Assembly (NCBI GenBank): GCA_001464575.1
Contig: LNFE01000131.1
Coordinates: 1-64,000, forward strand
Direction: 5' to 3'
From: Acidobacteria bacterium Ga0077553
GTDB lineage: Bacteria > Acidobacteriota > Terriglobia > Bryobacterales > Bryobacteraceae
DNA: 64,000 nt
Numbering within the stretch: position 1 is the stretch's first letter; each line of letters opens with the position of its first letter. Shown here one piece after another: positions 15,183 through 37,211 of the stretch. The notes below the pieces were generated by a model that was given only the letters and a program-made list of their open reading frames with translations, made no database searches and was not told the origin of the DNA. A program made the translations under genes and the position numbers.

Positions 15183-15269
15183 TGGTGCGCATGAGAGGAC
15201 TTGAACCTCCACACCCTTGCGAGTACCGGAACCTAAATCCGGGGCGTCTGCCAATTCCGCCACATGCGC
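15183..15269 (-). tRNA. tRNA-Leu (anticodon UAG)
   Basis: On the reverse strand a complete class II tRNA can be folded. The acceptor stem GCGCATG pairs with CATGCGC, followed by discriminator A and an encoded CCA. The D-arm is TGGCGGAATTGGCAGAC, the anticodon stem CCGGA/TCCGG encloses TTTAGGT with anticodon TAG, a long variable arm follows, and the T-arm contains GGTTCAAGTCC. Anticodon UAG reads CUN leucine codons. The gene is 87 nt with CCA and starts 15 bases after the stop of the upstream gene on the same strand, so it may be processed from a longer transcript. Confidence 0.96.
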
Positions 15270-35312: not shown

Positions 35313-35891
35313 ATGTCATCTATTGCTACTCAACTCGGCGATGCCGGCCAGACCAGCCTCGTCGGCGGACAACGCGTCTCCAAGGGCGCGCTGCGCGTCG
35401 AATCCTACGGAACGGTCGACGAGCTGAACGCTGCGCTGGGCTTTGCCCGGTCGATCTGCGCCGACGAGGTGATCGCCGCGGCGACGCTGGCCATTCAGCA
35501 GGAGCTTTTTCAGGTGGGAGCGGCGTTGGCCACCCCGCCGGATGCCCGCAAGGGGGATCCGCCGGTAACGCAGCCGATGGTGGACGCGCTAACGGCGCAG
35601 GTCCATGCTCTTGAGGCCATGCCGGGCTTGCTGAGCGATTGGTCGGTCCCGGGTGGCGACCCGGCCGGGGCTTCCTACGACCTGGCGCGGACGATTTGCC
35701 GCCGGGCCGAGCGCCATGTGGTACGGCTGGGCGAGGAGGAGGAGTTGGCGCCTCACGTGTTGGCGTATTTGAATCGGCTAAGCGATCTGCTTTGGCTGTT
35801 TGGACGGAAACTGGAGATCGAAGCGAAGGCGCAATCGGCCCTTCGCGAGCTAAATGCAAAGCCAGGGCCGCGGTGGTCGCGCGCCTGGTAA
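35313..35891 (+). CDS. PduO-type ATP:cob(I)alamin adenosyltransferase
   Basis: 192 residues, the normal length. TSLVGGQRVSKGALRVESYG and GTVDELNAALGFARSI form the N-terminal ATP site. WSVPGGDPAGASYDLARTIC followed by RRAERHVVRL, and YLNRLSDLLWLFGRKLE, complete the PduO five-helix family motif. The enzyme transfers the adenosyl group of ATP to cobalamin to make coenzyme B12. No other cobalamin gene lies close by. It follows the DUF1501 gene by 34 bases and may be read through from it. Confidence 0.93.
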   Translation: MSSIATQLGDAGQTSLVGGQRVSKGALRVESYGTVDELNAALGFARSICADEVIAAATLAIQQELFQVGAALATPPDARKGDPPVTQPMVDALTAQVHALEAMPGLLSDWSVPGGDPAGASYDLARTICRRAERHVVRLGEEEELAPHVLAYLNRLSDLLWLFGRKLEIEAKAQSALRELNAKPGPRWSRAW

Positions 35892-35946
35892 ACGTGAAAT
35901 AACACCTGCGCGAGGTGTAACCCAAAAATAACCTATTTGCTGCCTC

Positions 35947-35975
35947 TTGCAATCCTTTTGAGGTCTGTGTACACT
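35947..35975 (+). promoter_or_regulatory. promoter of the aromatic attenuator / DAHP synthase gene
   Basis: TTGCAA (35947-35952) and TACACT (35970-35975) are separated by 17 bp, the ideal spacing. Transcription would begin around 35982-35983, one or two bases before the leader-peptide ATG at 35984. This is the best -35/-10 pair seen in the window. Confidence 0.6.
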
Positions 35976-35983
35976 AGGTTCAG

Positions 35984-36067
35984 ATGTCAGCCCCGGGCGC
36001 CAACTTTCCCACGTTTCGATTTTGGTGGTATTACCAGATCGAGCGAGTGGCGTTGGCCCAGCGGTAG
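35984..36067 (+). CDS. aromatic-rich leader peptide of an attenuator
   Basis: A 27-codon ORF (ATG 35984, TAG 36065-36067) in a different frame from the downstream gene. Codons 8-17 read [10 protein letters not shown], so seven of ten are aromatic: three Phe, two Trp, two Tyr. Such density is the hallmark of leader peptides that sense charged tRNA through ribosome stalling. An in-frame stop at 35975 makes 35984 the only start. There is no Shine-Dalgarno, and the predicted transcription start is 1-2 nt upstream, so it is probably translated as a leaderless mRNA. It is followed by a terminator and DAHP synthase. Confidence 0.85.
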
Positions 36068-36104
36068 GACAAAAAAGTTCTTAACCCTAAACCCAACCCA
36101 CTCG
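36044..36104 (+). promoter_or_regulatory. antiterminator of the aromatic attenuator
   Basis: Bases 36044-36050 (CGAGTGG) pair with 36098-36104, and 36052-36056 (GTTGG) with 36093-36097, with C36051 bulged: 12 pairs in all. This uses the whole 5' arm of the terminator, so the two structures exclude each other. The 5' strand lies at the end of the leader ORF, just downstream of the aromatic codons (36005-36034). A ribosome stalled on those codons leaves it free; a ribosome at the stop codon covers it. A competing 1:2 pairing (35999-36004 with 36052-36057, and 36009-36012 with 36047-36050) can sequester it when the leader is untranslated. Confidence 0.75.
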
Positions 36105-36119
36105 GAAGAGTGGGTTTTT
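36095..36119 (+). terminator. intrinsic terminator (attenuator) before DAHP synthase
   Basis: CCCACTC (36097-36103), a GGAA tetraloop and GAGTGGG (36108-36114) make a perfect 7-bp stem, extendable by AA/TT to nine, followed by TTTTT at 36115-36119. It lies 28 bases after the leader stop codon and 42 bases before the DAHP synthase ATG. Confidence 0.88.
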
Positions 36120-36161
36120 CGCGTTTTGGGGAGATCCGTTCTTTCGAGGCAGAAGAAAACC

Positions 36162-37211
36162 ATGATCATTTCTATGAAAATCCACAGCACCAAGGAAGAT
36201 ATCGAAGCCGTATGCGACCGCATCCGCCACTTTGGTTACAAAATCCATGCCATCGAAGGAGAGGAGCGCTGCGTAATCGGAGTCGTCGGTGTCGGTGACG
36301 TCACCAACTGCCTGGAGTCGCTCGAGGCGATGCCCCAGGTGGAGAAGGCCGTCCGCATCTCCGCGCCCTACAAGTTTGTTTCGAAAGAGTATAAGTCCGC
36401 TCCAACGGTGATCACGGTGCGCACGCACGCCGGGCCGATCGAGATTGGCGGCGATGACTTCGTAATGATGGCGGGGCCCTGCTCGGTAGAGAACGAAAAG
36501 CAGATTATGGAGTCCGCCTACGCCGTAGCGGAGGCCGGGGCGCAGATTCTGCGCGGTGGCGCGTTCAAACCGCGCACCTCGCCTTACGACTTCCAGGGCA
36601 TGGAAGGCGATGGCTTGAAGCTGCTGGCCAAGGCGCGCGAGGCAACCGGCCTGGCCATCATCACCGAAGTGATGGCCGAAAAGGACGTGGACCTGGTGGC
36701 CGAGTACGCCGACATTCTGCAGATTGGTGCGCGGAACATGCAGAACTTTGCGCTGCTGAAGCGGCTGGGTTCCTGCGGCCGTCCGATCATGCTGAAGCGC
36801 GGACTGAGCGCGCAGATCAAAGAGCTGCTGATGTCGGCCGAGTACATTGTGGCGCATGGCAACCCGAACATCATGCTGTGCGAACGCGGCATCCGTACCT
36901 TCGAAACCGCCACGCGCAACACCTGCGACATTACGGCCGTTTCGGTGCTGGACGAGTTGACCCATTTGCCGGTGATCCTCGATCCTTCGCACGCGGTGGG
37001 CAAACGTAGTCTGGTTCCACCCCTCTGCCGCGCGGGCGTGGCGATTGGCGCCGATGGTCTCATCGTCGAAACCCACCCGTGCCCGGAAAAGGCTGTCAGC
37101 GACGGGGCCCAAAGCCTGACGCTGGACCAATTCCGCAAGATGATGAAGGAGTTGGCGCCTTACATCGCCCTCTGGAAGAACGCACGCGTGGGAGAGGCCG
37201 TCACTGTATAA
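36162..37211 (+). CDS. aroF: 3-deoxy-7-phosphoheptulonate (DAHP) synthase with N-terminal ferredoxin-like regulatory domain
   Basis: 349 residues from ATG 36162; the frame is open further upstream through the attenuator but is not coding there. Residues 1-75 ([20 protein letters not shown] and so on) form the ferredoxin-like regulatory domain of type I-beta enzymes. The barrel has [68 protein letters not shown] and [15 protein letters not shown]. It condenses phosphoenolpyruvate with erythrose-4-phosphate, the first shikimate step. Transcription is apparently controlled by the aromatic attenuator just upstream, and the N-terminal domain suggests additional allosteric feedback. Confidence 0.95.

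Follow-up and report, generated by a model that had tools for sequence, protein, structure and literature searches.

How is entry into a pathway with three end products controlled? Enteric bacteria have three separately regulated DAHP synthase isozymes. The stretch analysed here, the 64,000-nt window of contig LNFE01000131.1, raises the question for another phylum: the gap that separates a PduO-type adenosyltransferase gene (35313-35891) from aroF holds, directly 5' of the latter, an attenuator-like region (35984-36119). Among the named genomes returned, the one with the closest aroF is a Candidatus Sulfopaludibacter MAG (85% identity; Acidobacteriota, Terriglobia, Bryobacterales). Judging from sequence, we consider it very probable that aroF is controlled by a ribosome-mediated transcription attenuator that reads charged Phe-, Trp- and Tyr-tRNA.

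Elements of the aroF leader

The initial annotation had described a 27-codon ORF upstream of aroF with Phe, Phe, Phe, Trp, Trp, Tyr and Tyr in codons 8-17, and this ORF is indeed present (Table 1), packing seven aromatic residues into 10 codons. On both strands of the 64-kb window, there is no second ATG ORF of 9-45 codons with at least five aromatics in 11 residues. The GGAA-loop terminator with T5 said to precede the DAHP synthase gene was found as well, as a 9-bp stem-loop (36095-36116, -15.3 kcal/mol) with a T-run at 36115-36119, and the proposed 12-bp antiterminator between strands 2 and 3 is borne out with one bulge (-20.5 kcal/mol). The predicted fold also contains the protector: its two halves (35999-36004 and 36009-36012) pair with strand 2 around a hairpin within 36015-36043. 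The whole leader is predicted to fold into protector plus terminator; in a fold of 36045-36121, where strand 1 is absent as if held by a ribosome, the antiterminator is the most stable structure. The predicted fold of 35982-36122 reaches -52 kcal/mol (z -3.7), and none of 200 shuffles was as stable.

Table 1. Features of the aroF upstream region in the window
Feature	Position	Strand	Basis
Inverted repeat ACACC-TGCGCGA-GGTGT, possible operator	35902..35918	.	5' of leader promoter; same spacing in L004, L005, L006
-35 element TTGCAA	35947..35952	+	Sequence; family promoter pattern
-10 element TACACT	35970..35975	+	Ends 8 nt 5' of leader ATG; 8-10 nt in 75/91 leaders
Leader ORF, 27 codons	35984..36067	+	ORF translation; aromatic-rich counterpart in 97/123 family upstreams
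Strand 1 (protector), GCCAAC + CCAC, pairs with strand 2	35999..36012	+	Predicted fold; family 1:2 pairing
Sensing codons Phe8, Phe11, Phe13, Trp14, Trp15, Tyr16, Tyr17	36005..36034	+	Codon positions
Arg-Phe-Trp core hairpin, tip of 1:2 hairpin	36017..36041	+	CGATTTTGG (36017-36025) with CCAGATCG (36034-36041), predicted fold
Strand 2 (antiterminator 5' strand), CGAGTGGCGTTGG	36044..36056	+	12 bp with strand 3; family 2:3 pairing
Strand 3, terminator 5' arm, common to antiterminator	36093..36104	+	Pairing and family alignment
Intrinsic terminator 3:4, AACCCACTC-GGAA-GAGTGGGTT plus T-run	36095..36119	+	9 bp; family alignment
aroF, type I-beta DAHP synthase, 349 aa, regulated gene	36162..37211	+	TIGR01361 382.1 bits (cut-off 267.75); NF006421 474 bits (cut-off 335)

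Generic terminator and promoter scans returned no match at the attenuator region, which we attribute to the rules of these scans: the T-run lies partly in the stem, and the promoter (TTGCAA-17-TACACT) scores 8 out of 12 where 9 are required. In Rfam, the sole gathering-level match in the 64-kb window is a tRNA (15186-15269), with no T-box or leader family among the matches at that level. At relaxed thresholds, the best match within 35900-36200 is OmrA-B, at 20 bits where 40 are needed, and no credible family was found either there or in 20 upstream loci, chiefly leader-lacking ones.

Where would the transcript begin? With the -10 element ending so close to the leader ATG, it is probably leaderless or nearly so, the transcription start itself being what we infer here. 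Of 91 family leaders, 70 have a TTG-N16-19-TANNNT pattern that ends 7-11 nt 5' of their ATG; for random positions drawn from the same DNA, the figure is 46 of 17,672. The leader ATG lacks a Shine-Dalgarno match of at least 3 nt in 42/91 family members and has one of exactly 3 nt in 37/91; at the aroF ATG, such a match is missing in 1/91, and 73/91 have at least 4 nt. Predicted leaderless genes are listed for three of three Acidobacteria genomes, at 13.3% on average, in an earlier report (PMC3160421).

Further upstream lies an inverted repeat that is a possible operator. It stands 82 nt 5' of the leader ATG, as it also does in three close, same-genus relatives (L004, L005, L006), and a strict pattern finds it in 20 of 123 family upstreams. 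The upstream scan that covered this repeat and the L110 site described below took in 67 named loci, leaving out loci with little upstream DNA.

Conservation and covariation among relatives

The family set comprised 150 genomes. Their aroF upstreams were read in 126, the remaining 24 having no close orthologue or a fragment only, and the family counts rest on the 123 upstreams with at least 250 nt. An ATG mini-ORF with at least four aromatics in 11 codons precedes aroF in 97 of these 123 (20 rounds of dinucleotide shuffling: mean 7.0, maximum 12), and one with at least five in 85 (mean 1.2, maximum 3); the reverse strand of the same upstreams holds no such mini-ORF. A scripted search found a terminator in all but five of 96 family leaders, giving a set of 91; L149, which has a GTG start, stands outside this set.

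In other families of the class Terriglobia, 31 of the 39 aroF orthologues fetched carry an aromatic ORF with at least five aromatics (shuffle expectation 1.1), in a count that allowed ATG, GTG or TTG starts and for which not every orthologue found was fetched. By family, the leader is present in f2 1/1, f4 11/14, f5 9/11, f6 5/5, f7 4/5, f10 1/1 and f8 0/2; terminators in these families were seen by eye. The count leaves out 17 loci: L232 (f1) and 16 presumed paralogues with about 48-57% identity, of which two belong to f1. In families f3, f9 and f11, the aroF homologues read were at ~50% identity only (2, 7 and 1 loci); one of the ten (L256, f9) has a 4-aromatic ORF and the other nine have no aromatic ORF. 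That relatives keep the elements shows that the region does not owe its features to chance.

At the loosest threshold, 26 of the 123 family genomes have no leader. In some genomes without an attenuator, for example L148, L155 and L156, aroF appears by eye to have its own promoter, with a -10-like box immediately 5' of its ATG; these three and L190, L192 and L030 also carry an ACACC-N-GGTGG inverted repeat 86-101 nt 5' of aroF. The repeat or the aroF-proximal promoter may provide an alternative regulation in such attenuator-less genomes.

Do the three helices hold up across the family? The initial annotation had pointed to the upstream regions of related aroF orthologues; when aligned within the family, these conserve the aromatic codons and all three stems, with compensatory changes. 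Our alignment (A1) contains 80 of the 91 leader-plus-terminator genomes and omits L021, L022, L023, L029, L114, L115, L154, L201, L202, L203 and L204, in which the hairpin or strand 2 picked by the script was wrong or unusual. In the consensus, strand 2 (GAGTGGCGTTGG) lies 3' of the aromatic codons and the terminator reads CCAACCCACTC-loop-GAGTGGGTT. As expected for mutually exclusive structures, RNAalifold on the full alignment returned the terminator only, and the helices were therefore counted one by one. The 2:3 antiterminator is paired in 94.2% of cells (80 sequences), falling to 46-48% when the partner is slid by one column, and its covariation score of 0.172 compares with 0.122 in shuffled alignments (0/500 as high) and at most 0.083 in slid ones. 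For the 3:4 terminator, 98.8% of cells are paired and the score exceeds 500/500 shuffles. The 1:2 protector claimed in the initial annotation is kept in the family too, as the weakest of the three (84.0% of cells, 35-51% when slid; score likewise above 500/500 shuffles). Two-sided changes were seen at 6/11 pairs of 2:3 (reached by 19/500 shuffles and one slid version), 4/9 of 3:4 (50/500 shuffles) and 4/7 of 1:2 (111/500 shuffles and two slid versions); such counts are a weaker measure than the covariation score and, on their own, not decisive.

Swapping partners between genomes gave a concordant picture, albeit in tests that are inflated by the relatedness of the genomes. For 1:2, own partners beat swapped ones (0/2000 permutations). 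For 2:3, in 91 genomes, own strands reach -16.59 kcal/mol vs -14.56 (sd 0.20) when permuted (0/2000) and -9.41 for the shuffled region, and a genome's own strand 3 beats the mean of the others' in 77/91. Single genomes are nonetheless telling. Seventeen genomes have a divergent strand 3, and in nine of them (L026, L128, L139, L162, L164, L178, L187, L191, L209) the own strand 2 fits it better than it fits the common arm: where strand 3 has become CCCGCTC, strand 2 has become AGCGG (L139, L164, L187 and L026, the last with an unchanged 3' arm), and where strand 3 reads CCCACCC, strand 2 reads GGTGG (L162, L178, L209, L191). The fit is worse than to the common arm in L159 and L168 and neutral in L021; for the other five of the 17 (L022, L023, L029, L114, L115), the hairpin picked by the script was judged wrong. 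Computation thus establishes the parts and their conservation, how they pair and covary in the family, and the spacing described below.

What the leader probably reads

A ribosome's footprint extends ~12 nt beyond the A-site codon. In the window, the last Tyr codon starts at 36032 and strand 2 at 36044-36045, a gap of 12-13 nt. Across the family, the distance from the last aromatic codon to strand 2 is at least 12 nt in 84/89 leaders, 13-23 nt in 81/89 and shorter in five, with two of the 91 not located; the search started 3 nt past the aromatic cluster, so that very short distances were partly excluded. A ribosome stalled at the control codons would, with this spacing, leave strand 2 free. 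Relative to the start of strand 2, the position of the leader stop codon varies between 26 nt downstream and 17 nt upstream, with 1-2 nt upstream the commonest (38/89), and a terminating ribosome would therefore often cover strand 2; coverage of up to 12 nt beyond the stop codon is given in a published study (PMC4833913). Family conservation, pairing, covariation and spacing together lend support to the classical 1:2 / 2:3 / 3:4 attenuator that had been proposed for this DAHP synthase gene.

From these parts we infer leader translation, the start of transcription, termination and the response to each amino acid, in the following scheme. RNA polymerase would start at the leader AUG or a few nucleotides before it, and a ribosome would initiate on this leaderless or near-leaderless mRNA. 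With all three tRNAs charged, it would reach the stop codon and either cover strand 2 or let it refold on strand 1; in both cases the 3:4 terminator could form. If any one of the tRNAs were scarce, the ribosome would stall in codons 8-17 over strand 1 and the core hairpin, and strand 2, which begins 12-13 nt past the start of the last Tyr codon, would be free to pair with strand 3. The 2:3 helix would then block the terminator, and aroF would be transcribed.

But is it the codons that are read, or the peptide? In a TnaC-like alternative, a conserved [FY]-R-F-W motif would sense free aromatic amino acid from within the exit tunnel and arrest the ribosome; the codons would then matter as peptide rather than as tRNA demand. 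The motif is certainly frequent, with FRFW in 40/91 leaders and YRFW in 14/91. More broadly, 78/91 leaders have an Arg at the core position with Phe, Tyr or, in a single case, Leu after it, and in 71 of these 78 an aromatic codon lies 5' of the Arg. However, the 91 leaders contain 73 different ordered aromatic strings, and leaders of other families of the class are aromatic-rich but often lack FRFW (RFYFYRGW, YRWYRFTW, FRFSWSYWF). On the sequences compared, what is conserved is aromatic content, not its order or one peptide, and content kept without a fixed order favours tRNA charging over nascent-chain arrest. The Arg, moreover, is constrained at the level of its codon: it is CGA in 55/78 leaders, against 13/151 Arg codons elsewhere in the leaders and 3/163 in six window genes. 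The motif CGRTTYTGG is able to pair with the segment just 5' of strand 2. Under a strict pattern, a core CGA faces TCG in 21 leaders, CCG in 11 and nothing in 23, and a core CGG faces CCG in 15, nothing in 4 and TCG in none; in a swap test over 78 genomes, own core hairpins reach -9.86 vs -7.91 kcal/mol for swapped ones (0/2000). Codon-level constraint and core pairing mean that RNA pairing can account for the FRFW-type motif, and we regard peptide arrest as very unlikely. In our reading, the core hairpin forms the outermost part of the 1:2 protector and would be melted by a ribosome on the aromatic codons; the core CGA might also act as a slow codon.

Taking the leader as a reader of charged tRNA, does it weigh the three amino acids alike? 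A working attenuator might respond chiefly to Phe, with Trp and Tyr codons that are minor or serve the RNA structure. Phe is the most frequent of the three (18.7% of residues in the 91 family leaders, vs 9.9% Tyr and 6.9% Trp), sits in the core and occurs in 91/91, whereas Trp, Tyr or both are missing in 17/91; in addition, the aroR leader of Corynebacterium glutamicum is said in a review to respond to Phe and not to Tyr (PMC11802643). On the other side, all three aromatics are present in 74/91 family leaders and in 29 of the 31 leaders from other families of the class, and in the window no sensing codons lie closer to strand 2 than Trp-Trp-Tyr-Tyr. A bias towards Phe is a possibility to which we give rather less than even weight; the three-way code, in which all three amino acids regulate, is likely rather than proven, given the 17 incomplete leaders and the aroR precedent. 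A more radical alternative makes the mini-ORF incidental: a protein or ligand would bind the hairpin, in a TRAP-like or riboswitch manner, and the hairpin would serve to terminate transcription or to stabilise the RNA. The arm CCCACTC is indeed conserved in sequence beyond pairing, and L130, L134 and L179 keep, by eye, a terminator-like hairpin near a promoter-like box with the aromatic ORF absent. However, the need for strands 2, 3 and 4, and in part strand 1, to match one another would be enough to conserve the sequence, and strand 2 follows strand 3 in 9 of the 17 divergent cases. The ORF occurs far above chance, and in this region Rfam gave no match at gathering score and only weak ones below it. 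This last alternative we find scarcely credible.

Spread and relation to known attenuators

Run against the host genome, a covariance model built on the family leader (R1) gives a single strong match, this site (E 2.8e-23); at E <=10 it adds nothing except this site's terminator, read on the opposite strand (E 0.11), in a search that scored 150 of 1646 first-look candidates. With stricter filters, R1 matched in 16 of 247 genomes drawn from the phylum. R1 thus behaves as a family model, and the wider spread of the leader rests on the upstream readings of class orthologues. Among the matches inspected, L277, L278, L279 and L283, from outside the class, show an aromatic stretch and a terminator 5' of a gene that reads like aroF; their leader start codons are ambiguous, and in L283 the aromatic frame differs from the frame translated by the script. 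Trp-containing aromatic leader ORFs with a terminator occur in L280, L282 and L289, from other Acidobacteriota families, the first two preceding a gene that, judged from its translation, reads like trpE. The host genome's sole trpE-like match is below its cut-off and has no convincing leader there, the best candidate being a 4-aromatic ORF 244 nt 5' of the match and seemingly within the upstream gene; the host's pheA locus breaks off at its match. In L284 and L288, R1 matches in the terminator half only. Outside the phylum, L110 (2306-2389), a Ruminococcaceae MAG, has a Phe/Tyr-rich leader (MFKNIFAYAYYFYYYYFQNTKVRVVCA) 5' of aroF with, by eye, a hairpin and a T-rich tail; it is probably independent in origin.

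The R1 match in L281 (1501-1690, the same site as L295) is a cysteine leader before another gene. Cys-rich mini-ORFs of this type, such as ...RCCCCC... or ...ALCCCTEAPVCG, stand 5' of a peroxiredoxin-like gene in family f9 of the class (L281/L295, L296-L308, L311, L313-L315, L317, L318, L321, L322), mostly followed, by eye, by a CCCACCC/GGGTGGG-type hairpin. At least three Cys in eight residues occur in 22/30 f9 loci, a raw count without shuffle control. This looks like a candidate Cys-sensing attenuator on an antioxidant gene.

How do these leaders relate to known systems? The principle of attenuation is already known from E. coli trp and pheA, which likewise have a leader ORF, the 1:2, 2:3 and 3:4 strands, a terminator and a stall on the pathway's amino acid, but which read one amino acid each and have a normal ribosome binding site at the leader. 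Multivalent attenuators, in which one leader reads several amino acids of one pathway, are known in ilvL and thrL, which differ in belonging to the branched-chain and Thr/Ile pathways. For aroF itself, attenuators are known in Corynebacterium and predicted in Acholeplasma. The aroR leader of aroF in C. glutamicum was reportedly described by Neshat et al. in 2014. The review cited above, which also names E. coli trp and pheA as attenuation cases, presents aroR as a Phe-Tyr-Phe leader (PMC11802643), and a further source gives the C. glutamicum aroF leader without the name aroR (PMC4046766). Compared by function and code, from these descriptions, aroR resembles our leader as a short aromatic-codon peptide 5' of a DAHP synthase gene with ribosome stalling, but it has Phe-Tyr-Phe only, with no Trp mentioned in those passages, and belongs to another phylum. 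The uORFC-13-1 motif, as presented in its source (PMC8632094), likewise combines a uORF and a terminator 5' of aroF, in 24 sequences from Acholeplasma and environmental DNA with predicted attenuation; in contrast, it carries a ribosome binding site and one or more Phe codons, and no three-amino-acid code is described there. Leaderless attenuator ORFs, with transcripts from the leader ATG, are described for trpL of S. meliloti (Sinorhizobium) (PMC7298713) and for leaders of Streptomyces lividans (PMC8079986), which differ in reading single amino acids or serving other pathways, in other phyla.

In the open-licence literature searched, as far as the consulted parts of its texts go, there is no aroF attenuator from Acidobacteria, nor any that is reported to read the three aromatics together, which fits the initial annotation's knowing of no such combined-code leader there. 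Within that literature, neither the three-amino-acid code nor its distribution across Acidobacteriota appears to have been described. Newly described here are the probable leaderless ORF, the spacing from the last aromatic codon to strand 2 and the conserved Arg(CGA)-Phe-Trp core in the protector tip.

What does the leader mean for these bacteria? Its target, signal and structure are clear, and aromatic leaders recur on aroF across several families of the Terriglobia, a class of soil bacteria. The covariance model can be used for annotation within the family, and the likely leaderless start makes the leader a natural test of the coupling between such initiation and attenuation. On a broader reading, to which we give even weight for and against, a single leaderless attenuator would be an OR gate for the three aromatics at the committed step, an old Terriglobia regulator that uses tRNA charging for the task of the three enteric isozymes, and the related aroF and trpE leaders across Acidobacteriota would form one regulon. 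The leader thereby offers a testable answer to how entry into a pathway with three end products may be controlled.
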